Below are positions 12,301-53,410 of a DNA stretch of 64,000 nucleotides, in pieces. The stretch comes from Manihot esculenta. Its lineage: Eukaryota; Streptophyta; Magnoliopsida; Malpighiales; Euphorbiaceae. Where the stretch lies: contig NC_035176.2 of NCBI RefSeq assembly GCF_001659605.2, positions 23,474,847 through 23,538,846 on the forward strand. The letters run 5' to 3'. The notes under the pieces are model-generated. The model saw nothing but the letters and a program-made list of their open reading frames with translations, was not told where the DNA came from and searched no databases. Numbering within the stretch: the stretch's first letter is position 1; every line of letters starts with the position of its first letter. The translations under genes and the position numbers were made by a program.

Positions 12301-12785
12301 TGATGACCGCTGGATTCCTTCATCCCGGTCCAGGGCCTCGACCCCAACCTAAAGCCCACAAAGTAAAGGCCCACGTACTTGGCACCCAAAGCAGGCCCGG
12401 CTCATCTAACTTCCAAGGCCGGGCTCGACCAAACCTCCTCGCCCAGATCGACTCAGTCCGCGCAAAACAGGCCCTTCCTCTCTGGCCCAACTCTCGGCCC
12501 GACCCAATATCCAGAATGATACTCACCAGACAGCCTGGCAGATCCGTTCGAACGTACGCACAGGGAGAATCAGAGGCCGTTACGCATGGGGCAGGCGCCT
12601 GATACCCTCGTACGCCCGAATCTGCATGGCAGAGACGCGTGGCCCAATCCTGGAGAGACTTTTACACGTCACCAGCAAGCAAGACGAAATGGATAAAAGG
12701 GGAGTCCCCTCCTTAGAATAAAAAGCTTTTTGATTCAATACAAAAACCCTTGTAAAACCCTATTCTATTGGATCTCAGATCATCA
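12301..12785 (+). repeat. 5' LTR of the Tat element (485 bp)
   Basis: TGATGACCGCTGG at the start and GATCATCA at the end give TG...CA termini. The length equals that of the 3' LTR at 25388-25872. Six differences between the two were counted by eye, all C/T or A/G. Confidence 0.93.
12691..12700 (+). promoter_or_regulatory. TATA-like box in the Tat 5' LTR
   Basis: GGATAAAAGG lies about 95 bp before the LTR end, and the same box is found in the related solo LTR at 10456-10903. It is a plausible core promoter for the sense RNA; no start site was observed. Confidence 0.45.
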
Positions 12786-12787
12786 AT

Positions 12788-12804
12788 TGGCGCCGTCTGT
12801 GGGA
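12788..12804 (+). other. Primer-binding site of the Tat element
   Basis: TGGCGCCGTCTGTGGGA starts two bases after the 5' LTR. It is the form of primer-binding site usual in plant Tat-lineage elements, where a tRNA 3' end primes minus-strand DNA synthesis. The exact tRNA was not determined. Confidence 0.8.
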
Positions 12805-12866
12805 AACGACAGAGATATTTTCATCACCGGAGTTTTCACTCTTAACAAAACCCACTGAGATCCACG

Positions 12867-15800
12867 ATGGCTAATCACCAAGAAAGTAACCTTAACGTCC
12901 CAAATGACCTAAGCTCTGCCCAAGATGGGCAACAATTCTCTTTTTCTAGTCCTACGACATTAAACAACCAAACGCCTGTTCCTCTTAATCCCTCGCCAAG
13001 TTTGGTAGGGAATACTCCCGCTGTTACCTTGTCTAACCAAGATCTTCAAAACATGGCTCTCCAGTTACAGAATACAGCCCACTGGTTGGGGCAGATCATG
13101 CAGCAGAGAGGCCTCAACACCCCAGCAAATACACTCCCGGTTGTAGAGGAACCTCAGACCAATGACCCCCGACCTGCACCTGACCGTCTTCAAACCAGCA
13201 GCCACGATACTGAAGAAAGAGGGAGAAGAGCCGGCAAAGAGGAAGGACTGGAGGCCCGAATCCATAGGAGGAGGGCGAGAGAGATGATAGAAAATGAGGA
13301 GGTGGATAACTATTCTGCCGAAATAACCGGGTGGACGGGAACTGAAGCAGAGGAGGAGGAGTACCACCTGGAGAAAAAACCCAGCCCAGAAGACGAGAAG
13401 GTGGACCAAAAGTTGAAGAAACTGAGAGAACAGCTCCTCGCCGAGTTAGGTAAGAAAGACCAAAGCCAAACCTCTTTGCCTACTTCTTCCCCTTTCTCCA
13501 AGTGGGTGCAGCAAGAGACTGTCCCTAAGAAGTTCATGATGCCATCAATGGCGGCTTATGATGGAACTGGTAACCCGAGGGAGCACGTCATGAACTATAA
13601 GACCTTCATGGAGTTGCAAACTCTATTTGATGCCTTAATGTGTAAAGTATTCCCAACGACGCTCTCGGGACCAGCGCGGGCGTGGTTCAACAGCCTTGAG
13701 GCTGGAAGTATCAGGAGTTTCGGAGACCTAGCCATTCGCTTCATCAGTCGATTCATAGCCGGAGTGCCAGCGGAGAGGAAGACGAGCTACTTGGAGACAA
13801 TAAGGCAGAGAGAGGGTGAATCACTCAGAGAGTATGTCGCTCGTTTCAATACGGAGGCCCTGCAGATTTCCGATCTTGATGAAGGAAGGGCGGTAGAGGC
13901 AATGTAAAAGGGAACGACCTCTGCCGAGTTCTTCAGTTCCTTGAGCAGGAAGCCTCCCACATCCCTGGCCGAGCTGATGCAGAGAGCAGAGAAGTATATA
14001 AGGCAGGATGACGCCTTAGTAACGAGCCGATTTGCCAAAAGGATGGCAGGAAAAGAAAAAGCCTCAGAAGAAAGGAGGCCGGAGAAACATGAAAGGAAAC
14101 ACGGCAAGAGGCCCGAACCGTACAAGCAGGCCTGGGAGCGAAGGGATCAAAGGCCTCCCCCTCCATGGGCCCTTGAGCCAAGGTTGCCTCCCCCTTGGGT
14201 CCCTGAAAAGCCGACTCCATTAAATGCGTCCAGAGCCGAGGTGCTCATGGCCGTCCAGGATAAGGATTTTCTCCAGTGGCCCAAACCCATGAAGTCGGAA
14301 GCAGATCATCGGAATCCTGACAAATACTGTCAATATCATCGGACGCATGGCCACGATACCAACAACTGCTTCCAGTTGATAGCAGAGATCGAGAGGTTGA
14401 TAAAGAGGGGGCACCTAAAGAATTTTGTAAAGAAATCAGAGGGACAAAGGCCTCAATCCAGCCCGGCGGTTCAGGCACCGAGGAGAACAGGAGCGGGACC
14501 AGTGAACGATGGATCCAGTGGGACCATCAACATGATTGTAGGAGGAACGTGAGGACGGATGGGCCGCCGAGGGAAGAAGAGAAATCGGGAGGGTGAGACC
14601 TGCAGCACCGAGGTTATGCAGATCGTTGACCACTCTCCCATGACAATCACCTTCTCTTCAGAAGATGCTCAGGGTATTCAGATGCCTCATGATGACGCGT
14701 TCGTCATTGAAGCCGTCATTCATAATTATCGGATAAAGAAAGTCTTAGTGGATGACGGGAGCAAAGTCAACTTGCTACCACACCGGGTTTTTCAGCAGAT
14801 GGGAATTCCGGAAGAACAGTTGGTCCGAGACCAAGCACCAATCAAGGGGATCGGAGGAGTACCGGTGGTCGTAGAAGGGAAGGTGAAGCTGGCTCTCACC
14901 CTGGGCGAAGCACCCAGAACTCGTACTCACCACGAGGTATTTTTAGTGGTCAAACTTCCGTTAAGCTATAATGTGATCTTGGGGAGGCTTGCGCTGTTCA
15001 ATTTCGAAGCTGTCACCAGTATCAGGTATTTGGCACTCAAATTTCCAACAGAAGAAGGAGTGGGAATAGTCCGGGGCAGCCAGGAAGAGGCAAGAGCAGT
15101 ATACTTGGCCACAGTAGCAGAACCGAGCTCCACTGGAGAAGCTCTTGATTCGGAAGTTCTAGAGGTTCGGGATGAGAAAACAGAAGCCAGGACAGAACCG
15201 GTGGGGGAGCTGGAGATATTCCCTTTATCGGAAGCAGAGGCAGAAAAAGTTTTCAGTCTCAACGCCGGCCTCACTAAAGAACAAAAAGCTGAAGTCATGG
15301 CCCTGATCCGAGGTCATGCGTCTAGTTTCACCTGGAAGCCCTCCGACATGCCTGGAATTGACCCCATGGTAATGACACACAAGCTGAATGTACTCCCCGA
15401 AGCCAAGCCAGTAAAACAGAAGAAGAGAGTAGTAGGAAGAGAGAAGCAACAGACCACCAGGGAAGAGGTGCAGAAACTTGAGGAGGCAGGCTTTATTAGG
15501 GAGGTTATGTACCCACAGTGGTTAGCAAATCCTGCATTAGTCAAAAAAGCCAATGGCAAATATAGGATGTGCATAGATTTTACTGACCTAAATAAGGCCT
15601 GCCCTAAAGATTGTTATCCACTTCCTGACATTAATAAAATGGTCGACTCTACGGCCGATTTTGATTATATGTCTTCTTTGGATGCTATGTCTGGTTATCA
15701 TCAAATCCCAATGGAAAGGTCGGATGAGGAAAAGACCTCGTTTATAACTGAAGATGGGACTTATTGCTACAGAGCTATGCCATTCGGATTGAGGAATGCC

Positions 15801-18464
15801 GGGGCAACGTACCAAAGATTGATGAATAAAATCTTCAAAAATCAGATTGGCAGGAATGTAGAAGTTTACATAGATGATATGGTGGTCAAAAGCCCAAACT
15901 TCCAACAACACATGGCAGACTTGAGGGAAGTATTCGGGGTATTAAACCAGTACAGAATGAAGTTGAACCCAGCAAAGTGTGCTTTCTTTATTCGAGGAGG
16001 AAAATTCCTGGGATTCATGGTAAGCGGAAAAGGCATCGAGCCTAATCCGGAGAAGGTGGAAGCCATATTGAATATGCCAGAGCCGACCTGTGTAAAGGAC
16101 GTCCAGAGACTAACTGGGAGAGTAGTGGCGCTCAACCGATTCATGTCAAGATCGGCAGAAAAGTGCTTGCCGTTCTTCCAAAAGTTGAGGAAAGTACCAA
16201 ACTTCGAGTGGACGGAAGATTGCAAAAAAGCCTTCGCAGAGCTTAAGAAATATCTTAGCTCGCCCCATGTACTCAGCAGCCCTGTAAAAGGAGAGGAACT
16301 TCTGATATACTTGGCGGCCTCAGAACAAGCAGTCAGCGTAGTATTAGTGAGGGTGGAAGAGAGGGAGCAGAAACCCGTCTTTTACGTCAGCAAAGTACTC
16401 AGAGATACCGAGGTCAGATACTCAAACATTGAAAAAATGGCTTATGCCCTATTGCTAGCAGTTCGGAAATTCAAGGTTTACTTGGAGGGCCACCAAGGAG
16501 TTGTGATGACAGACCAACCCTTGAAGAAGATTCTACGCAGGCCGAAAACTTCAGGTCGGATGTTGGCTTGGTCCGTCGAGATCAGCCCTTACTGTCTAGA
16601 GTATCGACCCAGGACAGCTATAAAATCCCAAGCTTTGGCTGACTTCATAGCAGAGTGCTCATTCAACGAGGTGCAGGGAGGATCATCCTCAGGGACAGCA
16701 AGACAGCAATGTGAGGGGGAGCCTCATCCAGAATTTAACTGGAAGCTGTATGTAGACGGAGCATCAAGCACTGAGGGCAATGGTGCCGGAATAATGCTCA
16801 AGGGGCCAGAGGAGTTTAAGGTGTGTTACGCCCTACGTCTAGAGTTCAAAGCCTCGAATAATGTAGCAGAATATGAAGCCCTGGTGAATGGAATGTTGGT
16901 AGCTTTGGAGGTAGGGGTAACCGACCTCGAGGTGAATAGCGACTCTCAGCTAGTGATCAACCAGGTGACGGGAGTATACTAGGCTAGAGACCCCGTCATG
17001 CAGAACTACCTTGATAAAGTAAAAACTTTGGAAGCTGAGCTCATGGGTCGAGGAGTAACCATCAAGTTTCAAAGAATACCCCGAGAGGAAAATGAGGAAG
17101 CAGATCTGCTCAGCCGATTATCCAGAGAAGAACTGGAACAGCTTCCGGATGAAGTATACATACAACAGGTCCATACACCTGCTTTTAATAAAACTAACAC
17201 GATATTGCAGGTAGAACAAAGCCCAACTTGGATGACCCCATACCTGAGATACTTGGAAAAGGGCGAGCTCCCCGAAGATAAAGATGAAGCCAGAAAGATA
17301 GCAGCCCGTGCCGCTAACTACCAAGCAATAAGGGGGACCTTATACAGAAAAGGAAAATCCAGTCCATGGCTCCGATGTGTGAGCCCGGAAGAGGCTACAA
17401 AGGTAATGGAAGAGATACATAGAGGCCTGTGTGGAGCCCACGAAGGAGCAGGAACATTAGCCAACAAAGTATTCAGGCAAGGATACTATTGGCCCACTGT
17501 TAAAAAAGAAGCAGAAGAGTTTGTCCGGAAGTGCGACGTATGTCAGAGATTTGCTAATGCCATCAGAACCCCTGCCACTCCTCAAGCAAGCATATCCAGT
17601 CCATGGCCTTTCTCACAATGGGGAATCGATATCCTGGGACCGTTCCCCAAGACTATGGGGCAAAGGAAATTCGTAGTGGTGGCTGTAGAATACTTTTCAA
17701 AATGGCCAGAGGCAGAAGCAATAGCCACAATCACAGCTCGCAAGATGATAGATTTCGTGTGGGGGCATATCATCTGTAGATTCGGCATACCTAGAGTGCT
17801 TATCTCAGACAATGGCAGACAATTTGACTGCAGTACCTTCAGAGCCTTCACGACGAACATGGGCATATGGCACAAATTCTCCTCTGTGGCCCATCCTCAA
17901 ACTAATGGCCAAAAAGAAGTCACTAACAGAGCTATCCTCTAAGGGTTAAAGAAATGGCTAGATGGCGCAAATGAGAATTGGGCTGAAGAACTCAACAGTA
18001 TCCTGTGGGCACTCCGAACCACTCCCAGAGCACCCATTAAAGAAACACCCTTTGCACTTGCTTATGGCACGGAGGCCGTAGTCCCAGTCGAGTTGCAGAT
18101 TCCCACTCACCGAGTCCAATTCGTTAGTGAAGACACTAACGGGGACAAGTTAAGAAGCAACCTAGATACTCTTGAAGAAGTTAGGGAAGAAGCCCAAATC
18201 CGAACTGCTGCTTATCAACAACGGGCAGCACGATATTACAACCAAAAGGTTAGAGAGAGAAGCTTGAAAGTGGGAGACCTGGCCTTAAGAAACCTAGAAG
18301 CTACAGGGAAAAGAGCGGCCGCGGGCAAGTTAGCACCGACCTGGGAAGGTCCATTCAGGGTGACAAAAGTGGTCAAGCCAGGGGTATACCGGATCGAAAA
18401 TATGCAAGGAAACCTTGAGCCCCACGCTTGGAACATCCAGCACTTAAAGAGGTATTTCCCTTAA
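12867..18464 (+). pseudogene. Tat-lineage gag-pol polyprotein broken by four in-frame stops
   Basis: One reading frame of 1866 codons runs from ATG 12867 to TAA 18464, interrupted at 13905 (TAA), 14550 (TGA), 16980 (TAG) and 17940 (TAA) with no frameshift. In order it shows a retrotransposon gag domain (about residues 225-345), a C-x2-H...C knuckle (about 487), a protease-like D-D-G-S motif (about 629), reverse transcriptase with Y-I-D-D (about 1000), a first, degenerate RNase H, a second archaeal-type RNase H starting near Y-V-D-G-A-S (about 1292), and integrase with its zinc finger, D, D, E residues and C-terminal domain. All four stops are explained by a single C-to-T change in a CAA, CGA or CAG codon. 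The product cannot be made whole, so the copy is non-autonomous for these functions. Confidence 0.9.
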
Positions 18465-18700
18465 TATATTTGTAAAGAAAAACATTGTATTCTGACACAC
18501 ATGAGTGAATAAAATTGTTTATACAATGTGATTATCTTTGTGAATAATACTCCTCCGTGAAAAAGAACGAATAGGGCTCAGAGAGTCCCCTTGGAAAACA
18601 AGACCTCAGTTAGACACAAAACCAGCTGAGATGACGAAGCGACAGTAAGGCCAATGTGCCTGAATATTGTGCAAAACCTCAAGAAGGAACAAAAAGAACC

Positions 18701-19347
18701 AGGATCCCGTAAGATCTCCTGGCGCAAAAGCAATCGGCGGGCCCCGAGGTCACCCCGGAACAAAAATAACTAGGATCCCGTAAGATCTCCTGGCGCAAAA
18801 GCAACCGGCGGGGCCCCGAGGTCACCCCGGAACAAAAATAACCAGGATCCCGTAAGATCTCCTGGCGCAAAGGCAGCCGGCGGGGCCCCGAGGTCACCTC
18901 GGAACAAAAATAACCAGGATCCCGTAAGATCTCCTGGCGCAAAAGCAGCCGGCGGGGCCCCGAGGTCACCCCGGAACAAAAATAACCAGGATCCCGTAAG
19001 ATCTCCTGGCACAAAAGCAGCCGGCGGGGCCCCGAGGTCACTCCGGAACAAAAATAACCAGGATCCCGTAAGATCTCCTGGCGCAAAAGCAACCGGCGGG
19101 GCCCCGAGGTCACCCCGGAACAAAAATAACCAGGATCCCGTAAGATCTCCTGGCGCAAAGGCAGCCGGCGGGGCCCCAAGGTCACCCTGGAACAAAAATA
19201 ACCAGGATCCCGTAAGATCTCCTGGCGCAAAAGCTGCCGGCGGGGCCCCGAGGTCACCCCGGAACAAAAAAGATCAGGATCCCGTAAGATCTACTGAAGT
19301 AAAAGACAGCCAGCAGGGCCCCGAGGTCACCCCGGAACCAAAAATGG
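18701..19347 (+). repeat. Nine 72 bp tandem repeats in the Tat 3' region
   Basis: Copies begin at 18701, 18772, 18844, 18916, 18988, 19060, 19132, 19204 and 19276. Each contains AGGATCCCGTAAGATCTCC and a GGCGGGGCCCCGAGGTCAC segment. The first copy is one base short and the last has diverged. Because 72 is a multiple of three, open frames appear in several frames by chance; I do not treat them as genes. Tandem repeats in the 3' untranslated part are a known habit of Tat/Ogre elements and a recognised source of satellites. Confidence 0.95.
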
Positions 19348-20081
19348 CCGGTGAGGACCTTAAAGGACCTCCCAGAGCATGAAAACCGGGATCCCCTAAG
19401 AACTCCCGGAAAAACAAAACAAGACCGGTCGGTGGTCCCAAAAACCTCCCGAAGTACAAACTTCTCATATCATATGCAGGGACAACTTATAACAATACTG
19501 TTCCAGCTTCACAAAAAAGAAGGACTCAAAGCTATCAAGCAAAAATCAGATTCCGACCTCCCAAAGGGGTTCCGACCTCTTGAAGAGGTTCAGGGCATAA
19601 CAGCTAAAAAACACCGACCTCGAAATGACTGCTAATACTTAAAGCCTGGGCCGAGCTCCCAGTTCGGATAGTCCTGTACCCTAACGCTCGAAGTATAAAG
19701 GCCGAGCGACAAGCCGAGCTCCCTCTATAAAAAGGCTCATAAACGAAGAAACCAGCAGGAAGATAAATGAAGGTAAAAAGGCTATACTCAAAGCCCAAAT
19801 CAGTTTGTCTAGAACAAACATCCAAAGTCACAATCAAGAAGAAAGGGCTAAAAACAGAAAAACAAACATGCTAGTCGCCATTAAAAGATATGAGATTTGA
19901 TCTCTCAGATAATTAGCCGAGAACTGAGTTCACAACTTAAGACTGACTCAGTGGAAAAAGAGCTTATAAATGAGAATACTTAGTGCAAATATTACAAGTA
20001 TGAAAAGCAGAGATAGATATGAAGAACAAGAGTAGTTCAAGAAAAAAGGAATCAAAGTTTCATTAAAATAGCTGTTACAAT
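19348..20081. other. Tat spacer between tandem repeats and antisense gene
   Basis: No gene is seen. The start continues as decayed relatives of the 72 bp repeat (GAGGTCACCCCGGAAC-like pieces to about 19450). The end (about 20040-20081) would be the 3' untranslated region of the antisense gene. Confidence 0.5.
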
Positions 20082-23000
20082 CTATTTTTCGGACGAAGTA
20101 GAAGGAAAAATAGTCCTCAAAGGACTCACATCTGTGAGAACATCCTCGCCTACACTATCTTTATTTACAGCTACATCTGGAGGAAGCACGGCCTCCTTTG
20201 GATCAGGCCTCTCAACATTAACAACAGGGGCAATCTCTGACCCTAGGTGGGGGTCCTCCTTCTCAGAATTAGGGTCATCTCCCTCTGACCCAGGAACTTC
20301 CTCGTCCTCCCCCTTTGACTCGGATTCTTCTGAAGAAGACACAGAGGACCGGCCTACGATGCGACAATCCCCTCTGGGCATAGGGAAATCATCTTCCCCA
20401 TATAACACCGGCTCGCCATCCGAGTCCAATTCGGGCTTACGAAGCTTTTCCAAAGGAATATCAGGAGCGTGTCTAGCTTCCCTTAAACCACGATTATAAC
20501 CGGTTACGTACATACGGAAGGCTTTCTTAAAAATAGCCGACCCCATCTCAGCGGAAGCTTTATATTCATCAAGATGTGCTTCGCAAGCCTCAGTTACAAA
20601 CGCCTTCAATTCAGAAGAATCTTTGTAGTCCTGAAGGTGAACCTCACAGGCCTGCTCGATCTTCCTCTTCAGTTCATCAGACTCTTGATACTCCGCTGTA
20701 CATTGCTCACGCTCTAGCTGAGCCCTGTCTTCAACATGTTTTACTACCTTGAGCAGGGCTGAACACTTACGTTCCAAGGTCCTGACTTCATGGTTGAGCT
20801 GTTGGTGGCGAAGGTTGAACTCTTCAGCCGACGAAGCCAGGTCCCTGATACGATCAGAGCTCGTACTCAACTCCTGCTCAAGGACCTCCACCCGAGCTAG
20901 GGCCCCTTCCTTCTGAGCTTTCACCTCCTCCAGGTGAACCTGCAGTCCTTCAGAATCAGCCTTTAAGGCCTTATATTGACGCTGGATCTCAGTTTTCTGG
21001 CTCACAGCCTCATCTCTCTCTCGAAGGGCCCCCGTCATAGAGGACAGCTGCTTTAAAACTTCTGCACAACGAGCCTCCACGGCAGCTGCTCTCTCATCAG
21101 ACTCCTTGAGGACCTTGCGAGTATGAGACAGCTCTGCTTCTAAAGACTTGGTGTGCTCTGCTGTCTCAGCCGCCTTCTCCTCAGCCTTTTTAATGACCTC
21201 CAGCGCAGAGTGCAACTCTACCTGGAGGGACTGGGTATGCTCCCGAGCCGCTGCAAGGTTACCCCTGGCGTCACTAGTTGCAGACAAATTTTCATCCAGA
21301 CGTGCCTCTTCAATCCGACGGTCTACAGACTCCCGAAAGGAGTAATCACGAGCATCCACCTCCATAAAGAGGCCCGTCACCTAGCACGGAATAACAATCG
21401 TCAAGAGGAAGAAATAAAGTAAACTAAAAGAGAAGTGGAAAAGTAATTTACCATCAAAAGCATCTCCCTAATTGTCGATCTGAGCTCCTCCCGAGAGCGA
21501 GACCGAAAGGACGCTTGTTCCTTGGTAAAACTGGCTAAGAGACCAGTCAGGGCAAAAAGACGTGAATCAGAGGCCTCGGTAATTCCGCCGAACATTCGCT
21601 CTCTAAGAAGTTCGGCAACAGCACTGGCCGGAGACTCAGAGGTAATGTCTGACGCGTTTAGAACGTTGTCAGAAGAAGACAACAAAGGCGTAGCAGGAAC
21701 ACCTTTCCCCTTCCCAATGGGAGGAAGAGCTGGAGAAGATCCTGTGGCGGCCCTGGATTTCTTCCGAGCAGGAGATGGGGAAGATGTTCCGGAAGGGGCT
21801 GGGCGCTTATTCCCGGTCTTTAGTGGAATGCCTTCAGAATCCTCAGGCCCAGTCCCCACAGAGCCTGGGGCATTTTGGATAGGAACATCTGGGACTTGGT
21901 CCTCTATAAGGATGATCTCCATCCCTGTCCCAGAGGCCTCCTTGTCTTCAATAACGGGGGACTTAGATTTTCCCCCTGACACCCCTTCAGGAGAATGGAC
22001 AAGACCCGACTCCACTTGTTCAACGACTTCGGTCTGCTCCACAATGGCTAGGGAGGTTTCCCTCGCGCCCTCCGAGGAAACTGGAGTAGATTTAGACCCT
22101 TCAGAGGGCTTAAGAGTTGAGCTCGACCCACCACGGCTAGATGGCCGACGCGATTTGGCGCTGCGAGAGCTTGGTTTAGAAGCTCGAGAAGAAGCTTTGG
22201 CAGGAGGACGGCTAACCTTTTTGGAGGAAACAGCTTGAACCACCTCCGCAGCAGCCTCAGACACTGAACGCCCAGCCGAAAAAGCGTCGAAAACTGCGTG
22301 CATATTATCCCGAGACAGGACAAAGTTCTTGGGGAGCTTGAGTTCATCCATTTTAACCTCAGAAGCTGCAAAAAACATGAAATTATAAAGAGTCAGCATA
22401 CTTTCGGATATCATGAGCAAAGAAGAAACAGAATCACTAGACAAAGCAATATACCCGTGTCCCGGATATCCCTAAGATTGGACACGAACATACACTTCTC
22501 GACGTCATACTTCCTTTCAACGGAAGTCAATCGAAGCAACCCCACCTGCTCAATAAGGCTCAATTGGGGCAGCTCGTTGCAACCCGGATGGACCTCCTCC
22601 CAACTTAGATCCACCTCCCACGATCGGGCGGACTCTAATTTCAGCTCCACCACAAGGAAATTCTCTACCCATCCCTTTATGGAATCCTTGTATCCCGTGA
22701 AAAGAGACAACCCACTACGGGGAGAAAAGTAATAAAAATTATGAACTGCTCTAACCAGACGGAAAAAAGTGACAAACAGACACGCTGTGGGGGTAAAACC
22801 CCAACTCAGGCAGATAGACTCAAAACAGGACAGAAACAAAATAGAATTTGGGGATAACATCCGAGGGGTTACCCCGAAGTACTCAAAAACCTCAATAAAG
22901 AAAGGGGTAAAAGGAAACGGTAGACCGAAATCCCTCTGTTTGAGAAAGAACACTATACAGCGACCCCTTTGGGGATCAATCAAACCAGGAGGAGGAGGGT

Positions 23001-23148
23001 TAGGAAGGACTATCCTTTCGTTTTGAAAAGGCGCTCGAATGAGATACAGAGGAGTATCTAAGAGCCTCTGGGAAATGTGCTTAGTTATGTTGGAAGAAGT
23101 AACATGCGACCTAGTATTAACGACATTGGGGAGCTTTGGACCCTCCAT
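20082..23148 (-). CDS. Antisense spliced gene of the Tat element (putative gypsy type transposon family)
   Basis: Three minus-strand exons join in frame: 23148-22455, 22365-21452 and 21380-20082 (694 + 914 + 1299 nt), giving 968 residues and a stop. Introns 22454-22366 (89 bp) and 21451-21381 (71 bp) both have GT...AG ends, the first with a TTTTTTGCAG acceptor. Exon 1 carries a conserved hydrophobic/aromatic block (about residues 75-160, with PFTPFFIEVFEYFG and WGFTPTACLF) resembling the plant 'putative gypsy type transposon' domain (Pfam PF04195 by memory). Exon 2 is rich in Ser, Pro and Lys with a nuclear-signal-like PARKKSR (about 430). Exon 3 is a long predicted coiled coil (about 545-820) with an acidic tail. 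The start may lie 42 codons further up at 23274; I prefer 23148 because the extra segment is low-complexity and hydrophobic. The molecular role is unknown. Confidence 0.75.
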
Positions 23149-23370
23149 AGAAGAGCAAAGAAGCGTACCTGAAAGCACAATAAGATGGAAGAAACAGAAG
23201 AAGTTGCAGGAAAACAGAGAGCAGAAGAGAGCGAGTTTCTTCAGAAGACAGGGAGAATTCGAAGGGAAAGGCAATAATGAGATGAAACGTTGTTCTGAGC
23301 AGTTTTGTCTTGGAACGGCGTGATCATTAATTGCTCTCGAAGTTTACCCTCTCAACGGTTAGATAGTAAC

Positions 23371-23430
23371 CGGCGAGAAGGTAAAGGGGCAAGGAGATGA
23401 CCGCTGAGCTTCTCCACCCCTACAAAGGGC
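23371..23430 (+). repeat. Fossil polypurine tract and LTR head inside the Tat element
   Basis: CGAGAAGGTAAAGGGGCAAG followed by GATGACCGCTGAG (about 23373-23406) closely matches the real 3' junction at about 25368-25400 (CGAGAAGGTGAAGGGGCAAT, then TGATGACCGCTGG). It looks like a decayed second copy of the PPT/3' LTR boundary, now internal. Only the first 40-60 bp can be aligned with confidence. Confidence 0.6.
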
Positions 23431-24059
23431 CAGGCCCACGACAATGGCCCATCAGCTGAAGGCCCGCATGCTATTCGCATAAGACAAACAAGTTGTCAAA
23501 ACCTTAAAACCGAGCTCCAGTCGAATCTCTCCCTCAGGACGACCTGACGCGCAAAATGCACATCATCACCGCTCAGGCAGTAAAAACCAAGGAAAAAGAA
23601 TAAGTCATAGAAAAGCCCAAAGAAACAAACAGGAGGAAGCATGATAAAGGCCAGACCAGCCCGTCACCTAAGAAGGATCATCATTAAGCAAAGGCCAGAA
23701 GCCCAGAACGACGCGATGAAGACGCCTCGGAATCTTACAAAGTTATGGGTCAGAAGCTCAACCTTTTTGATTAAAAGCAAAGCTCATAGGTCAGTCAGTT
23801 CAGCTCGGAAAAAGCAAAATCGAAAGTTAAGGAAACTTAGAGCTCGGATCATTGAACACAGATAGAGCTCAGAGGTCGGATTAGTCTCGCTTGGACAAAG
23901 TAAACCGAGAGTAAGCTCGCAGGTCGGTCGGTACAGCTCGGAAAGAGCAAATTAAAAACTCAGACTGGCTAAATAGATTCCAGGTCGGATCGGAGAAAAT
24001 CACGAAGAAAAAAGTCATCTCATGCATAATAAAGAACAGTTCGGATATAAACGAAAAAA
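23431..24059. other. Spacer between the two antisense gene copies
   Basis: No gene is seen. It contains loosely repeated pieces with AGCTCGGA and AGGTCGG (about 23790-23960). It may include decayed LTR sequence following the fossil junction. Confidence 0.4.
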
Positions 24060-24950
24060 TGAAAGTTTCATTACAGCGCGTTACAAATACCCACATTACA
24101 GAACAAAAAGCTATCATTAGAGGATTTACATGACCAGATACATCGTCTACGTTTACATCACTATCACCTATCATTATCCTAGTCTTCGACACAGAGGAAC
24201 TCTTGAATATGGGAAACGAGCTCAGTAGGTCGGCCGAACCCTGCGTCGTTATTATAGGAGAACTGAACAAGTTGATTCCCATAAGCATTTCTCACTGTTC
24301 CCCTATGGACAAACATTCGGTTGCCCAAGTGTGATGCACGGTACATTCGAATAAGCTCAGATATTATATGTTGTTCGAATGTCACGCATGAAAAACATAA
24401 GTCTTCGAGTTACGACCTTAAGAAGATCACAGAGCAGATGTTCGGAGGTATCGTCGGAAGCTTGACTGAGTGCAGCAGATCTCAGCCTTTCATAATACAG
24501 GTACTTCACACCAAAGGGAGTAATAAATTGATCATTTTCGCCACTTCCGTTTATATCAAAAGAAGACAACCTGGACGTCGGGGAAATTTCCTTCTCGAAG
24601 GAAGATACAGTCAAAACAGACCTCCCAGCAGCCCATAGCCTCTTTGGAGCCCGAACAACAACCAAAGGAGGAGGCCAACCAGACGATCTGGGTAAAACAG
24701 TTTCAACGACCTTCCGAATGACTCCACCCACCAACCGCCCTGCTAGAAGGACCTCAGAAGCAACATTCAGACTCCCTTGAGGTAATATCAGATTTTCAAG
24801 AGTTTTGGACTGATCCATCTTTATCTCAGGTACTGCAAAAAGTTCCAAACAGAGAAGTCAGGATAATTTTTTTTTTAAAATAAAGCAAGGTTAAAGCAAA
24901 TCCCTGGGGCAGCAAAGCAATAAAGTCTCCGGCTCACCTTAATCCGTGTG
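24060..24950 (-). pseudogene. Degenerate second copy of the antisense Tat gene
   Basis: The minus-strand reading from about 24848 starts L-F-A-V-P-E-I-K-M-D, parallel to exon 2 of the intact antisense gene (F-A-A-S-E-V-K-M-D), and both continue into an A-G-R...V-V-E/Q-x-V pattern. A TTTTTGCAG acceptor (exon start 24832) and a GTGAGC donor (intron 24833-24937) sit where intron 1 would be. At about 24061-24080 a TTTCATTA...GTTACAA segment matches the 3' flank of the intact gene at about 20060-20080. The rest of exon 2 and exon 3 is missing or unrecognisable. It is a truncated paralogue, probably non-functional. Confidence 0.6.
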
Positions 24951-25370
24951 AAGAAAACGTCAAATACATCCTTTGCGGAAAAAACAGGAGAATCTCGTTG
25001 GAAGGAAAGACCCCTTTTCTCCGACAAAGGGCCTAGAAGTGAAGAAGAGTCCACACTGATATATACTCGAAATCTGAAGTCTTAGCGCAAAGTAACTCTA
25101 GACTCTAAGACCACAATGTCAGGATCTTTAACAGGTATTCATGGAAAAGGAAAACGAAGCGCGTCCAGGCAATAATGACAAGAAAGTAAAGAAGAGCAGA
25201 GTATCTGAGAGGTAAGGAAAGGCCAGAAAGGGAAAGAGGCAGATAGAATTCAAGAAATGAGGAATGACAAAAAGATGAAAGGGAGTTATGAAGGCATCTG
25301 TACGCGAACAGACGCGGTCATAATGGTTCTCGATATTCACCCCCTCGGCAGTCAGAGCAATAACTACCGA

Positions 25371-25384
25371 GAAGGTGAAGGGGC
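25371..25384 (+). other. Polypurine tract of the Tat element
   Basis: GAAGGTGAAGGGGC ends three bases before the 3' LTR and is the expected plus-strand primer site. Confidence 0.7.
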
Positions 25385-25387
25385 AAT

Positions 25388-25872
25388 TGATGACCGCTGG
25401 ATTCCTTTATCCCAGTCCAGGGCCTCGACCCCAACCTAAAGCCCACAAAGTAAAGGCCCACGTACTTGGCACCCAAAGCAGGCCCGGCTCATCTAACTTC
25501 CAAGGCCGGGCTCGACCAAACCTCCTCGCCCAGATCGACTCAGTCCGCGCAAAACAGGCCCTTCCTCTCTGGCCCAACTCTCGGCCCGACCCAGTATCCA
25601 GAATGATACTCACCAGACAGTCTGGCAGATCCGTTCGAACGTACGCATAGGGAGAATCAGAGGCCGTTACGCATGGGGCAGGCGCCTGATACCCTCGTAC
25701 GCCCGAATCTGCATGGCAGAGACGCGTGGCCCAATCCTGGAGAGACTTTTACACGTCACCAGCAAGTAAGACGAAATGGATAAAAGGGGAGTCCCCTCCT
25801 TAGAATAAAAAGCTTTTTGATTCAATACAAAAACCCTTGTAAAACCCTATTCTATTGGATCTCAGATCATCA
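25388..25872 (+). repeat. 3' LTR of the Tat element (485 bp)
   Basis: It matches the 5' LTR in length and ends and is followed by TSD AAATT. It differs at six transitions. Confidence 0.93.
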
Positions 25873-32048: not shown

Positions 32049-32816
32049 TCAGCTGTTGCTACCACCAGTTCTCCAGGATGACAATTGCGGAAACTGTGAA
32101 ACCAGCGACTCCACAACCCTTTCAGGAAATGTTTTGTTTGTCACGGGCGTCTTCACATCCAATTCACAGTCAGGATCCCGCCAGAACTTGATGATATGAA
32201 GATTCTCTTCTTCTGTTGATCTCTGGATGACAATTCTATAAGCATAACCCTTCTTTTTCATTTGACGACATATCTGTGAAGGATCATTTGCTGCAAGAGT
32301 GACCATGTATAACCAGCCTCTGTCGGACAAAAGACAATCTGCAATGGGCAAAATCCTGTCAATAACTCTCCGACCATTCTCCCCTCCAGCCCAAGCAGAA
32401 GTAATCCCTTCACAACCCACTTCATCTTCAGGTGTTGGGACATAAGGTGGGTTCACAACCATCACATCGACCATCCTCTCCAGTCGCTTTTCCAGTCCAG
32501 ATGCAATGTTAGTTTGTATCAACTCTGCATGAACACCATGTGCTTCCAGTGTCTCACTAGTCACTCTAACTGCATGAGGGTTGAGGTCAGTGGCAATATA
32601 GTAAGCCCCAGGAATATGCGGTCCGAGCATAAGAGCTAGAGAGGTAATAACATAACCACTGCCACAACCCACTTCCACACATAATCTAGGATTATGCTCC
32701 AAAAGGTTATTTCGATCAGCTAGAAGTGCATCAACTAATGCGAATGAATCATCACATGGCTCATAAACCTCAGGATGTGAACTCACAAGGCGAATTTGTG
32801 CTATTCTGGGGGACAT
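32049..32816 (-). CDS. HEMK2/N6AMT1-type class I methyltransferase (release factor eRF1 glutamine methyltransferase)
   Basis: A single uninterrupted exon encodes 255 residues. Motif I, V-E-V-G-C-G-S-G-Y (about 47-55), binds S-adenosylmethionine. D77 ends strand two, and N-P-P-Y (122-125) is the signature of enzymes that methylate amide or amino nitrogens. Family members (yeast Mtq2, animal N6AMT1) work with the small partner Trm112 to methylate the Gln of the GGQ motif of eRF1 in the cytosol, aiding translation termination. Length and full domain content match the family. The ATG at 32816 lies 11 bases after a likely splice acceptor, so the whole reading frame is in the last exon. This is the only ordinary host gene I can support. 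A direct role on other substrates is debated for animal homologues. Confidence 0.9.
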   Translation of the reverse strand: MSPRIAQIRLVSSHPEVYEPCDDSFALVDALLADRNNLLEHNPRLCVEVGCGSGYVITSLALMLGPHIPGAYYIATDLNPHAVRVTSETLEAHGVHAELIQTNIASGLEKRLERMVDVMVVNPPYVPTPEDEVGCEGITSAWAGGENGRRVIDRILPIADCLLSDRGWLYMVTLAANDPSQICRQMKKKGYAYRIVIQRSTEEENLHIIKFWRDPDCELDVKTPVTNKTFPERVVESLVSQFPQLSSWRTGGSNS

Positions 32817-32827
32817 CTTGCATATGC

Positions 32828-35173
32828 CTGACAGGAACCAACTGTATGATGTATTCTGGGAGAAAGAAAGAAAATTTCACATCACAAATTCAATATTCAA
32901 AATTTAATGATATGACCAAAAATGGGACAGCTTCAACATTTTAAATCAAATTTCACTTTACATATATGACCAGGTCCTAAAATCTGGCAAATTAAATTCC
33001 CACTTGAATGAGCTTCTACAGCTAAAGCTCATTGGAAAGTTCCTTGCTGGTTAAGGAAAAAGATGTATGAAAGCGAAAAACACGTGCTGCCAGCCTTTTC
33101 AAAAAAGTTTAAGGATTCTTTTTGCATCTTTTATGACAGGATTTTTAAAATGAGTACATCAGCATTTGAATTCCTTATGTTTCTCATTTTATCTATCAAA
33201 GACCAAGATTAAAAGATAATTGGAAAAAATGCAGTAAAGAAAAAAAAGATCAGTTTCCTGATCATTATCATGGATGCAAACGAACCAGTCAATCATGTAA
33301 AAAAAATTATGCATGTTCTAAATGTTAAAAGCAGAGATTGTTAGAACGCAAGATATTTGACCTCAAAACCATGAATATGAACGGATTTACATTTCTGTCA
33401 TATATTCAATATCAGGTTATCATAGCAATTCAACCATAAAATACCAATGAATTTACTTTCTGCATTAAATCATCATCAACCAAGTCTTCCATGAGTTAAT
33501 TCATAATATTACGAAGACAGCAACAGCACAATGATGTGGATTCAGATAATGGTTCATGTAAAGCCAGACTTAATTCACAAAAGATTGAGAGACTCTAAAG
33601 TAAAAGATAATTCATAATTAGCCATCTGTTTAATCCAACTAGACCCCATTTGAAAAGGAAAAAATAAATTTCTTCATCTTCCACTGGTTTCTATCCACCA
33701 TTCTTTATCAAAGGCTGTATATTCGTGTTATTAACAAGATCCAGTGTAAAACTATCAACCTCAATCACAATAAGTCTCACCATCTTCATATTACCACAAA
33801 CAATTTTCAATCAACATGATAGAACCAAATTATTAATCAAATGACCCAAAAATGACACACTGAGTGAACCAAATTTCTTGCACCGTTTCTGATTTGATTC
33901 CCAAAAAGCTCTCACAGATATTTCCTCTCTATTTGACCACAACAATCTTTGATTCCTCGATGCTAGGATCTACCTCAGCTCAGGAAACAATCTCACAACT
34001 GAATACTGCAGTACAGGGCCTTATCTCAGTTAGATAGAACTAATAAATAGATTGAACTAACCTTAGCTAATAGCTCAGCTTGATTTTTACTATTAAAACC
34101 TATTACCTATACTCCCCATCTCTAACATTTCAAGCACCACAGCAAGATAAACTGTACGACAAATAAGCATTAAACTTTCACATGCATAAAATCCAAGGGA
34201 CCTTTCCCAGGGCAACAGACCTAAACACATCAAATAGCAAAAAGAAATGTCCCCAAAAAGAAAGCACAGGGCTTCAACTCGACAGAGTTCATATTCACAA
34301 AAATTGGGTAATTCTTTATGAACTGTCAGCAAGTCAAGCAAAGCATAATTTCATTTTCTTAGCACAACAGACCCATAAAACAAAAATGATCTCGAAGGCA
34401 CACAATAAATCCACTTAAAATAGGGGAGAAGTTCACCAATCAATTACGAAAAATTAATTTCAATGCGCACATGAATGGATCAACCACATTCCCAACGTAT
34501 AGGAATCAATCTCAAACGACTAGTTCACTAATTTGGAAACTCAACGTTAATGAATGGGAATGTAAATGTATGTGACAAATTAACTCATATTTTCAAATTC
34601 TTCCTGATAAAATTGACAACACTAGGATACAACAAGTATGCCTAACTGGGACGAGTCCTCCTTCCTTCCAAACCCACGTCACCATAGATTCAAGCAGCAT
34701 AGAGGAAATAAAGACAACATTCCCAAAAGTTAACACTAGCTAACAAATGGGGTTTAGTCATACAGACAACCAGCCCAAACCCTTCAGAACCAACATAAAT
34801 ATCAGTTTCACGACACCACTCCAAAGAACAGAGCTTGAATTATTGTAGAGTAACCTAAGAAAAGATATTCCACTTCACTGAAAGTAACCTGAACAGGAGA
34901 AGGAAAACAAGAGGTACTGCGTTCACCCAAGGGAGAAAAGAAGTCTTAGTTTAACACAATAAATCAAATGCTTACAAATACCAGATAGTAATTATCAAAT
35001 ACACATTAATCACCTGACCGACAGCCGAAGACCCATAGAAATTAATCAAAATGGTCCTTTTAAACAATAAACCAACTCTTTTCAAGGAAAAAATAAATCA
35101 AACAATAAATCCACTAAAATAAACCAGAAATCAATCTATAAAACAAACTTAATTAAAATAAGGAAATCTTCAC
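32828..35173 (-). other. Probable 5'-leader intron of the HEMK2-type gene
   Basis: On the minus strand a donor TTTAG|GTGAAG at 35174/35173 and an acceptor TTCCTGTCAG|GC at 32828/32827 fit a 2346 bp intron between an untranslated first exon and the coding exon. The intron is AT-rich with no other recognisable gene. Its 3' end contains the 160 bp stretch 32893-33052 that recurs inverted at 38221. Transcript evidence is needed to confirm the exon. Confidence 0.5.
32893..33052 (+). repeat. 160 bp inverted repeat, left copy (in HEMK2 intron)
   Basis: This stretch is nearly the exact reverse complement of 38221-38380, for example GACCAAAAATGGGACAGCTT here and AAGCTGTCCCATTTTTGGTC there. Only a few mismatches are visible. 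Confidence 0.85.
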
Positions 35174-36233: not shown

Positions 36234-36638
36234 CTTTAAAATATTTTGTTAAGAACTTCTTCTCCTAAAAAGCTGCTGCTTCTTCTTCTTCTTCATGCCT
36301 TAAAATATTTTGTTAAGAACTACTTCTCCTAAAAAGCTTCTTCTTCTTCTTCTTTTTCATCTTCTTCTTCTCCTAAAAAGCTTCTTCTTCTCCTAAAAAG
36401 TTTCTTCTTCTTCTTCTTCTTCTAAAAAGGTTCTTCTTCTTCTAAAAAGGTTTTTTTTTCTTCTTCTTCTTCTAAAAAGGTTCTTCTTCTTCTAAAAAGG
36501 TTTTTTTTTCTTCTTCTTCTTCTAAAAAGGTTCTTCTTCTTCTTCTTCTTCTAAAAAGGTTCTTCTTCTTCTTCTTCTTCTAAAAAGGTTTCTTCTTCTT
36601 ATTCTTCTTTTTCTTCTTCTTCTTCTAAAAATGTTCTT

Positions 36639-36670
<32 letters not shown>

Positions 36671-36962
36671 AAGCTTCTTCTTCTTCTTCTTCTTCTTCTT
36701 AAAAGCTTCTTCTTCTTCTTAAAAGCTTCTTCTTCTTCTTCTTCTTCTTCTTAAAAGCTTCTTCTTCTTCTTCTTCTTCTTCTTAAAAGCTTCTTCTTCT
36801 TCTTCTTCTTAAAAGCTTCTTCTTCTTCTTCTTAAAAGCTGCTTCTTCTTCTTCTTCTTCTTAAAAGCTGCTTCTTCTTCTTCTTCTTAAAAGCTTCTTC
36901 TTCTTAAAAGCTTCTTCTTCTTCTTCTTAAAAGCTTCTTCTTCTTCTTCTTAAAAGCTTCTT

Positions 36963-36993
<31 letters not shown>

Positions 36994-37101
36994 AAAGCTT
37001 CTTCTTCTTCTTCTTCTTCTTCTTAAAAGCTTCTTCTTCTTCTTCTTCTTCTTCTTCTTCTTCTTCTTCTTCTTCTTCTTCTTCTTCTTCTTCTTCTTCT
37101 T

Positions 37102-37132
<31 letters not shown>

Positions 37133-37139
37133 AAAGCTG

Positions 37140-37170
<31 letters not shown>

Positions 37171-37320
37171 AAAGCTGCTTCTTCTTCTTCTTCTTAAAAG
37201 CTTCTTCTTCTTCTTCTTCTTCTTCTTAAAAGCTTCTTATTAAAAGCTTCTTCTTCTTAAAAGTTTCTTCTTCTTAAAAGTTTCTTCTTCTTAAAAGTTT
37301 CTTCTTCTTCTAAGCTTCTT

Positions 37321-37351
<31 letters not shown>

Positions 37352-38108
37352 AAAGCTTCTTCTAAAAAGCTTCTTCTTCTTCTTCTTCTTCTAAAAAGCT
37401 TCTTCTTCTTCTTCTAAAAAGCTTCTTCTTCTTCTTCTTCTAAAAAGCTTCTTCTTCTTCTTCTTCTAAAAAGCTTCTTCTTCTTCTTCTTCTAAAAAGC
37501 TTCTTCTTCTTCTTCTTCTAAAAAGCTTCTTCTTCTTCTTCTTCTAAAAAGCTTCTTCTTCTTCTTCTTCTTCTAAAAAGGTTCTTCTTCTTCTTCTTCT
37601 AAAAAGGTTCTTCTTCTTCTTCTTCTTCTTCTAAAAAGGTTCTTCTTCTTCTTCTTCTTCTTCTTATTCTTCTAAAAAGGTTCTTCTTCTTCTTCTTCTT
37701 CTTCTTCTTCTTCTTCTTCTAAAAAGCTTCTTCTTCTTCTTCTTCTTCTTCTTCTTCTAAAAAGCTTCTTCTTCTTCTTCTTCTAAAAAGCTTCTTCTTC
37801 TTCTTCTTCTTCTAAAAAGGTTCTTCTTCTTCTTCTTCTAAAAAGGTTCTTCTTCTTCTTCTTCTTCTTCTAAAAAGGTTCTTCTTCTTCTTCTTCTTCT
37901 TCTTATTCTTCTAAAAAGGTTCTTCTTCTTCTTCTTCTTCTTCTTCTTCTTCTTCTTCTTCTTCTTCTAAAAAGATTCTTCTTCTTCTTCTTCTTCTTCT
38001 TCTTCTTCTTCTTCTTCATGCTTTAAAATATTTTGTTAAGAACTTCTCCTAAAAAGCTTCTTCTTCTTCTTCTTTTTCTTCTTCTTCTTCTCCTAAAAAG
38101 CTTCTTCT

Positions 38109-38140
<32 letters not shown>

Positions 38141-38220
38141 TTCTTCTTCTTCTTCTTCTTCTTCTAAAAAGGTTCTTCTTCTAAAAAGGATCTTCTTCTT
38201 CTTCTTCTTCTTCTTCTTCT
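36234..38220. repeat. About 2 kb CTT/GAA microsatellite with AAAAGC/AAAAGG interruptions
   Basis: Almost pure pyrimidine TTC repeats are broken at irregular distances by CTAAAAAGG, CTTAAAAGC or CTAAAAAGC. Interruption types come in blocks: mainly AAAAAGG at about 36420-36650, TTAAAAGC at 36660-37360, CTAAAAAGC at 37360-37560, and AAAAAGG again to 37985. A rare TTATTCTTCTAAAAAGG variant recurs near 37663 and 37902, about 239 bp apart, showing a higher-order duplication. Three copies of a 40 bp flank with TTAAAATATTTTGTTAAGAA stand at about 36234, 36298 and 38029. Confidence 0.95.
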
Positions 38221-44174: not shown

Positions 44175-44280
44175 TTCTTCCTCCCTTAAGAACATTCGTT
44201 CCCGAATGTTCACCAAACAAGCATACATGCAAAACATAGCATAAAACATAAACATATATACAAAACACATAACACTCACC

Positions 44281-45752
44281 TTAGAAGAGGTGGGGATATT
44301 GCTGGAGCATGGACTCCCGTGTCTCCCAGGTACACTCCTCGATGTTGTGGTGATTCCAAAGAACTTTCACCATCGGGATTTCCTTGTTTCTTAGCTTTTT
44401 GATTTGGGTGTCTAGGATCCGCACTGGCTGCTCAACATAGGTGAGATCCCCAAGGATCTTCACATCAGGCTCACTCAGAACCTTGCCCGGATCCGACACG
44501 AACTTCCGTAACATAGAAACATGGAAAACCGGATGGATTCTCTCCATAGAAGCAGGTAAATCCAGCTTATACGATACATTCCCGATCCTCTGCAAGATCT
44601 CAAAGGGTTCGATGTACCGTGGAGCTAGCTTACCTTTCTTCCCGAACCAAATCACCCCTTTTATAGGAGACACCTTGAGCAATACCAAATCCCCCTCCTG
44701 AAACTCTACTTGCCTTCTGCGGATATCTGCATAACTCTTTTGCCTGCTCACAACAGTCTTGATCCTTTTTCTAATTATGGACACCACTCTGCTGGTGATC
44801 TCTACTAGCTCAAGCCCTGCCAAGGCCCTTTCTCCAACTTCCTCCCAGCAGACAGGTGACCTGCACTTCCTTCCATACAAAGCTTCATATGGGGCCATCC
44901 CTATACTAGCATGATAGCTGTTATTGTAGGCAAACTCCACCAAAGGTAGATGCTGCCTCCAAGAACCGCCAAAATCTAGCACACACATTCTGAGCATATC
45001 TTCTATTGTCTGGATGGTCCTCTCTGATTGTCCGTCCGTCTGAGGATGGAAAGCAGTGCTGAAGTCTAGCCTGATACCCATAGCGCTCTGCAGACTCCGC
45101 CAAAACCTGGAGGTGAACTGGGGTCCTCTATCAAACACTATTGAAACATGAGCCCCATGCAGCCTGACCACTTCATCAACAAACACCTGCGCCAATTTGT
45201 CCACAGAATAGCCACTCCTGACAGGGATGAAGTGAGCAGATTTGGTCAGTCTGTCCACAATCACCCATATGGAGTCCAATCTGTTGGACGTTGCCGGTAA
45301 CCCCACCACGAAGTCCATAGCTATATTCTCCCATTTCCACTCTGGAATCGGTAGTGGGTTAAGCATCCCAGCCGGCTTCTGATGTTCCAGCTTCACCCTC
45401 TGACATACTTCGCAGGCTGACACGAACTGTGCCACTTCTCTTTTTATAGCTGGCCACCAATAAGCTCTTTTCAGATCCTGATACATTTTGGTGGCTCCAA
45501 GGTGAACACTGTATCTGGCATTATAAGCTTCCCTCATAATGTCTCCCTTCAGACCCATGTCATCTGGTACACACAATCTGTTCCCATAGCGGAGGATCCC
45601 CTTGCTGTCAAATCTGAACTCCTCATTCTTGCCTGACTGAACAGTCCTGGCAATCTTCACTAACTTTGGGTCCTCGTGCTGTTTCTGAGCCACCTACTCC
45701 AGAAACAAGGGTGTCACTCTCATCTGGGCTATCAAAGCACCTGTACCAGACA
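44281..45752 (-). pseudogene. Element B pol, 3' part (integrase and chromodomain)
   Basis: A 470-codon open stretch (45693-44281) holds the integrase zinc finger, the catalytic core with its D, D, E residues, the C-terminal region and the chromodomain, ending at TAG-free sequence up to the natural stop. Just upstream, at about 45694, a TAG interrupts the frame between RNase H and integrase. Element D splits this part from the rest of pol at 45752. Confidence 0.88.
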
Positions 45753-48060: not shown

Positions 48061-48062
48061 GA

Positions 48063-48080
48063 ATGGTATCAAAGCCCTAG
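48063..48080 (+). other. Primer-binding site of element D
   Basis: TGGTATCAAAGCCCTAGG starts two bases after the 5' LTR. It is the initiator-methionine tRNA type; it has one mismatch from the TGGTATCAGAGC form seen in E. Confidence 0.85.
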
Positions 48081-48322
48081 GTTCATAGGATCGGACCTAG
48101 AGTGTCGGGCTCATAGATGTTATAGAAGGTCAAGCACAATAGGAAAGATCATGTCCACTAGGATAGGATGTGGAGTCCTGTCTTGTATGATAATGTGAAA
48201 TGCCATGATTATATGCATGTGCATTAATGATATGTGACGTATGTGATGAGGGTTCATGTGTTCCCACATGAACCATATGATGCTAATGTTTATGTGATGT
48301 GTGCTGTTTTTCATAAAACAGG

Positions 48323-53302: not shown

Positions 53303-53373
53303 GGTTAGATCTTTATGTGTTTATGTGCTATGTATGTATGCTATGTTGTATGCCATGCTATGTGCTAGTTGAG

Positions 53374-53410
53374 GAACATTCGGGGACGAATGTTCTTAAG
53401 GGGGGGAGAA
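53374..53410 (+). other. Stem-loop and polypurine tract of element D
   Basis: Arms GAACATTCG (53374-53382) and CGAATGTTC (53387-53395) enclose GGGA. The G-rich polypurine tract follows directly and ends at the LTR (53411). Confidence 0.8.

Follow-up and report, generated by a model that had tools for sequence, protein, structure and literature searches.

Evidence for purifying selection on a predicted three-exon antisense gene of Retand-type retrotransposons in cassava

Results

Within a 64,000-nucleotide stretch of the cassava (Manihot esculenta) genome (contig NC_035176.2, positions 23,474,847 to 23,538,846; the window), a full-length long terminal repeat (LTR) retrotransposon of Retand type carries a three-exon gene antisense to its gag-pol, which by its sequence is the known Retand antisense TRP28 gene. 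That this gene is protein-coding and selected we regard as almost certain, and the pattern of codon differences indicates purifying selection on the antisense protein across the family. The selection acted on ancestral active copies, and none is seen on the window copy. The gene is also very probably spliced, and its conserved introns, together with a duplicated antisense unit, are apparently new.

Read on the minus strand from 23148 to 20082 with its two GT-AG introns joined out (Table 1), the gene yields 968 codons and a stop, confirming the gene structure of the original prediction, which had been made from the letters of the window alone, and the open frame of each exon exceeds those in all 500 dinucleotide shuffles of that exon. 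The prediction was also right in placing the gene among a kind known from Tat relatives, the search for PF04195 being positive (E=3.6e-10; 40.4 bits against a gathering cut-off of 26.2). From the layout it had described, the serine-rich middle (serine makes up 18% of exon 2) and the coiled coil were found along with PF04195, while the basic character proved only local, with a net charge of +4 in exon 2 and -33 in exon 3. The AlphaFold2 model of exon 3 is a single 238-residue helix (residues 16-253), in which 149 of 432 residues reach a predicted local distance difference test (pLDDT) score of at least 90 and the predicted template modelling score is 0.28; the acidic tail that follows has low model confidence. 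A pattern like a bipartite nuclear localisation signal (NLS) occurs in the window protein and in all 16 relatives from the first search. Since the same pattern arose in 143 of 2000 exon-2 shuffles, the argument lies in its conservation and not in its presence. A nuclear location is likely, and the nuclear, oligomeric protein hinted at originally is, on the model and on analogy, probably the right picture. No bZIP family was found among the Pfam matches of the antisense exons, three scans of viral contigs and one of bacterial and archaeal genomes gave no relative, and a PDB sequence search with the exon-1 profile gave nothing convincing (best E=0.28). Opposite exon 2, a 263-codon sense-strand frame is open (21447-22238, plus strand), and when the gene region was shuffled 500 times, a frame of at least this length arose once; it is probably a shadow of the antisense codons.

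Selection was measured as omega, comparing non-synonymous with synonymous differences matched by mutation type, separately for differences private to one copy (mostly arising after insertion) and those shared by at least two (mostly older). From 39 antisense pieces, L015, L041 and L046 were left out for omega and L026 also for stop rates; from 20 pol pieces, eight were left out, four without aligned pol (L054, L055, L061, L063) and four badly aligned (L057, L058, L064, L066). Multiallelic sites, 102 in the antisense gene and 10 in pol, were not used. Shared omega was 0.52 (95% interval 0.43-0.63) for the antisense gene and 0.14 (0.09-0.19) for pol, compared with private values of 0.75 (0.64-0.89) and 0.49 (0.40-0.62), and shared and private differences were distinct in both genes (Fisher P=0.0017 and P=5e-9, respectively). 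In the 12 sister elements with both genes readable, the antisense shared omega was 0.44. By exon, the shared value was lowest in the TRP28 exon 1 (0.30, 0.17-0.49), highest in the linker exon 2 (0.72, 0.54-0.98) and 0.47 (0.35-0.64) in the coiled-coil exon 3, and reading the gene in the wrong frames +1, +2, rev0 and rev2 gave 1.23-1.44. Compared with the distant sub-family of model P0009, the ratio of non-synonymous to synonymous substitution rates (dN/dS) was 0.10-0.13, 0.18-0.27 and 0.12-0.18 for exons 1 to 3, rough values at a saturated dS of 1.2-2.5; in this comparison L088 and L090 come from a single element, and codons containing a stop were excluded. It is extremely unlikely, and already contradicted by omega and by the sub-family dN/dS, that a young copy stayed open purely by chance, selection being absent at every level: such chance would do for the window copy taken alone (see below), but the upper limit of the shared omega lies below 1 and the exon frames outrun all their shuffles.

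A different possibility is that the functional product is the antisense RNA, as a regulator or a trigger of double-stranded RNA, with the open frame incidental. According to the accessible parts of two reviews (PMC7264820, PMC12786077), antisense RNAs of retroelements, in plants and elsewhere, can themselves be active, but constraint that follows the codon frame and is strongest in the TRP28 exon is unexpected of an RNA function, and diversity at third codon positions is about double that at the first and second (0.068 versus 0.038 and 0.035). We consider an RNA product quite unlikely.

The contrast between an open antisense frame and a broken polyprotein was the reason for which selection on the antisense product had originally been suggested. 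The four gag-pol stops were confirmed (Table 1), and those at 16980 and 17940 are absent from all 16 sister pol pieces (out of 20) that had aligned codons, coverage not having been checked separately at the two sites. The gag-pol frame has 162 transition sites prone to yield a stop, and the antisense gene has 42; at the LTR rate, 1.85 stops would be expected in gag-pol since insertion (4 seen) and 0.48 in the antisense gene (0 seen). The probability that the antisense gene stayed free of stops is 0.62, and that all four stops landed in gag-pol 0.40. Of the 39 antisense genes in sister copies, 16 are free of stops and 14 of frameshifts, and 6 are fully open. Stops were equally common per stop-prone site in 35 antisense genes (31/1612) and 12 pol pieces (19/1122; P=0.77), and in the 11 elements with both genes counted the antisense rate was, if anything, higher (14/497). 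Because only about 0.5 antisense stops are expected and sisters take stops at equal per-site rates, the contrast with gag-pol is uninformative. The intact frame beside a dead one is not evidence of selection, and for the window copy luck suffices to explain it. Selection on the antisense product thus holds for the family, in which differences shared by copies are well away from a dN/dS near 1, and fails for the window copy; the equal frequency of stops in sister copies speaks only against selection at the level of single copies. It is accordingly highly unlikely that the window copy was itself kept by selection after insertion, as a trans-mobilisation helper or for host use: in favor of this, the copy has an intact antisense frame where its gag-pol is broken, but the equal stop rates in sisters, the number of singleton antisense stops (11, near the 13.6 expected) and the window-private antisense changes (8 non-synonymous and 4 synonymous against 36 other copies) argue otherwise.

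Among the sister copies (L009-L047), the same stop recurs at antisense codons 60, 195, 342, 488, 589 and 730 in copies that are not mutual nearest neighbours. Amplification of copies with a dead antisense gene was not supported as the source of these shared stops, the sharing copies not being nearest neighbours at any of the six positions; the recurrence suits repeated transitions at mutation hot spots, or recombination.

The introns were compared with 16 Manihot protein models made by others (P0001-P0016), which are predictions and for which the counts are our own. The same exon-2 donor is used in 13 and the same exon-3 acceptor in 12 of them, and the joint between exons 1 and 2 lies at the predicted place in 5. 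Eleven sequences read on past the intron-1 donor (P0031, which ends just past it, was left out); their mean pairwise identity is 0.69 over at most the last 75 exon residues and 0.38 over intron-encoded residues 3-14, and 54 of the 55 pairs show lower identity beyond the donor. Both introns have GT-AG borders in 36 of 39 genome copies. In the P0009 sub-family, with protein identity of 0.49-0.74 to the window gene, intron 1 is GT-AG in three of five loci, the three with both anchors found (a one-base phase being allowed), and intron 2 in four of five, the donor of L091 beginning with AT instead of GT. Splicing might still not be the main mode, exon 1 being expressed on its own as a TRP28 protein some 245 residues long that runs into intron 1 and exons 2-3 from an ATG within exon 2. 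Open reading frames (ORFs) of 245-247 residues do run into intron 1 in other copies (P0017-P0020) and P0001 begins at the exon-2 ATG, but the fall in identity past the donor, the splice sites kept in the distant sub-family and the models that join exon 1 to exon 2 make this unlikely. Spliced and unspliced forms may coexist, as for hbz of human T-cell leukaemia virus type 1 (HTLV-1) in the available text of PMC10186651. The cassava models P0001-P0016 list these antisense retrotransposon genes under names such as golgin subfamily A member 5-like, triadin-like, FLO11-like and abhydrolase domain-containing.

A diverged duplicate of the antisense unit (23374-25379) lies between the antisense gene and the 3' LTR. 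Besides the homologies in Table 1, it holds the border of intron 1 and exon 2 (24666-24942). The relic polypurine tract and LTR start scored 493 and the best of 200 shuffles 390; beyond 23406 the two values were 382 and 379. For the duplicated upstream region the score was 397, the best of 200 shuffles reaching 275. Residues of the second unit are found in the models of 7 of 16 relatives (P0004-P0008, P0011, P0014; 39-68% identity), and each of the 20 copies retrieved aligns with it (84-98.5%), so that the duplication is old in the family. With two of the 20 pieces left out (identity under 0.85), omega was 0.97 (0.61-1.58) for shared and 0.83 (0.53-1.31) for private differences, and diversity was flat over the codon positions (0.066, 0.069 and 0.064). 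A second working gene is not supported by these values, the omega interval being wide. The duplicate most likely arose by recombination or template switching between related elements, by which a second 3' end would have come to lie behind the first.

The prediction of a Tat-type element was correct, and by domain order (RVT_1, RT_RNaseH, RVT_3, Integrase_H2C2 and rve, over adjoining pieces of the gag-pol frame) it is of Retand type. A second, archaeal-type RNase H lies between the RNase H and integrase, a feature common to Retand and Ogre (PMC6317226, as far as available), and the antisense TRP28 ORF between pol and the 3' LTR marks Retand in the accessible text of PMC11963269. The LTR length falls inside the Retand range of 315-1194 bp, and the target-site duplication (TSD) AAATT has the 5 bp usual for plant LTR elements. 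The element fits the Retand lineage (Tat, Ty3/gypsy) by domain order and its antisense PF04195 gene. Apart from its four stops, gag-pol is one continuous frame. The two LTRs are identical at 481 of 487 aligned positions, all six differences being transitions; at a substitution rate of 1.3e-8 per site and year, this divergence suggests an insertion about half a million years old, and on that basis the element is judged young.

Table 1. Positions of the element, the antisense gene and the second antisense unit in the window
Feature	Position	Strand	Evidence or remark
Full-length Retand-type LTR retrotransposon, 13,572 bp	12301..25872	+	LTRs; TSD AAATT on both sides
5' LTR, 485 bp, TG...CA	12301..12785	+	Alignment with 3' LTR
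Primer-binding-site region (candidate)	12786..12810	+	Position, TGG start
gag-pol, single frame, in-frame stops at 13905, 14550, 16980, 17940	12846..18464	+	
72-bp tandem array, 9.2 copies, between pol and antisense gene	18686..19345	.	
Exon 3, 1299 nt, long coiled coil and acidic tail, then stop codon	20082..21380	-	
Predicted continuous helix, exon-3 residues 16-253	20622..21335	-	AlphaFold2
Intron 2, GT-AG, 71 nt	21381..21451	-	
Exon 2, 914 nt, Ser/Pro-rich	21452..22365	-	
Bipartite-NLS-like motif, residues 418-436	21752..21808	-	Sequence pattern
Intron 1, GT-AG, 89 nt	22366..22454	-	
Exon 1, 694 nt, ATG at 23148	22455..23148	-	
TRP28 / Transposase_28 domain (PF04195), residues 67-131	22756..22950	-	E=3.6e-10
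Relic polypurine tract and LTR start inside element	23374..23852	+	Strong for ~35 bp, marginal beyond
ORF of 153 codons and stop, second antisense unit, homologous to exon-2 start, no TRP28 match	24357..24818	-	
Duplicate of region upstream of antisense ATG (homologous to 23150-23385)	25144..25379	-	
Polypurine-tract region	25361..25387	+	Sequence adjoining 3' LTR
3' LTR	25388..25872	+	Alignment with 5' LTR

Discussion

We favor as likely the reading that the gene specifies a spliced, nuclear coiled-coil accessory protein that acts at the level of the element and resembles HBZ in layout. RNA polymerase II would transcribe it from a promoter of its own, located between gene and 3' LTR, and the transcript would be spliced, exported and translated; the protein would return to the nucleus and oligomerize through its coiled coil, its TRP28 domain would bind the DNA of the element or its chromatin, and the bound protein would tune transcription or silencing of the element. 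A nuclear oligomer acting in this way is suggested by the anatomy, the nuclear location of the Grande protein and the layout of hbz; the choice of transcription or silencing over nuclear import or integration is tentative, somewhat short of an even chance. The protein would serve the family before and between insertions, the window copy being a young insertion that has drifted since. Genomic RNA is sense and would carry the introns as unspliced reverse complements through every replication cycle, so that they would persist because of the antisense orientation, being reversed in the packaged RNA. It is possible, although doubtful, that the introns are a working part: not lost by replication, they may mark the antisense mRNA as spliced and host-like and keep it distinct from packaged sense RNA. 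By analogy with HUSH, which in mammals is reported to silence intronless mobile DNA (PMC8770142), such a mark may aid export and escape from silencing. If this were true, spliced antisense accessory genes would be a general Retand device missed by ORF-only surveys and convergent with hbz.

A number of observations weigh against this proposal. Splicing and the protein product are both deduced from sequence, and several of the gene models behind the splice comparison, themselves predictions, look like chimeras of both antisense units. Selection is clearly weaker on the antisense gene than on pol, and shared stops have been purged less (8 against 12.9 expected in the antisense gene, 2 against 9.0 in pol). 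One alternative frame, rev1, has an omega of 0.62 (0.52-0.76), which we tentatively put down to shared third positions, and the window-private changes bear no sign of constraint. Of all stretches measured, the 202 bp upstream of the antisense ATG vary most (nucleotide diversity 0.088), and a search there for a TATA-like match found none and showed no promoter. The second unit is a useful but weak control, since its omega interval just overlaps that of the antisense gene and 10 of its 20 copies have neither stop nor frameshift. Finally, the TRP28 model is poor (mean pLDDT 42 from a 24-row alignment), so that DNA binding by this domain rests on the published view, which in the accessible text of PMC11963269 is itself a prediction.

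The Retand antisense TRP28 ORFs described by Vicient in 2025 (PMC11963269, seen in part) agree with the cassava gene in orientation, position between pol and the 3' LTR, PF04195, an Smc-like coiled coil in some, nearby tandem repeats, and LTR and TSD size. They were found with ORF Finder, and introns are not described in the available text, whereas the cassava gene has three exons; the cassava element also differs from that set in its second antisense unit and in a region between pol and the 3' LTR of 6,923 bp, above their 2,933-6,566 bp. Maize Grande gene23 (Gomez-Orte 2013, as summarized in the available part of the review PMC7264820) is likewise an antisense accessory gene with its own promoter and a nuclear protein, and is present in most copies of its family. 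The hbz gene (PMC10186651, in part) is alike in layout, as an antisense, spliced gene for a nuclear leucine-zipper (bZIP) protein of an LTR element, and its transcript may act as RNA too; no common descent is claimed, the cassava exons gave no bZIP match, and hbz is transcribed from the 3' LTR. Ogre, the sister lineage, shares the Tat clade, the extra RNase H and the presence of introns in a plant LTR element (PMC6317226, PMC12786077, both in part), but the introns of the cassava element are antisense. Plant LTR elements generally lack introns, Ogre and EVADE being the exceptions named in the accessible part of the 2025 review PMC12786077, and the 2020 review PMC7264820 calls, in its accessible part, for the study of antisense and spliced transcripts. 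Among titles and abstracts outside the subscription literature, we found no publication on introns in Retand-type antisense genes.

To the question of what the Retand antisense TRP28 protein does, the cassava family brings a defined three-exon gene model, exact splice junctions, a selection profile with its minimum in the TRP28 exon and its maximum in the linker, and, to compare with these, a decayed duplicate. The family further suggests that spliced antisense genes can be broken into pieces by ORF-only surveys, and that cassava protein models carry such genes under misleading names.

Other features of the window

The unit of the 72-bp array is a multiple of three, so that frames of about 200 codons stay open on both strands of it. 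A second LTR element (45752-53709) has its gag-pol spread over three adjoining ORFs (48317-53302) and carries direct repeats of 300 bp that match at 99%; next to it lies an inverted, related integrase piece (44262-45752) with a Chromo match just under the cut-off in ORF 44281-45693. Rfam gave no match at gathering score in the window. Nearly 2 kb of CTT-rich tandem repeats with a changing period occupy 36323-38182. A single-ORF methyltransferase (PF05175 MTS; 32049-32876, minus strand), which we take to be HemK2-like, is likely a host gene.
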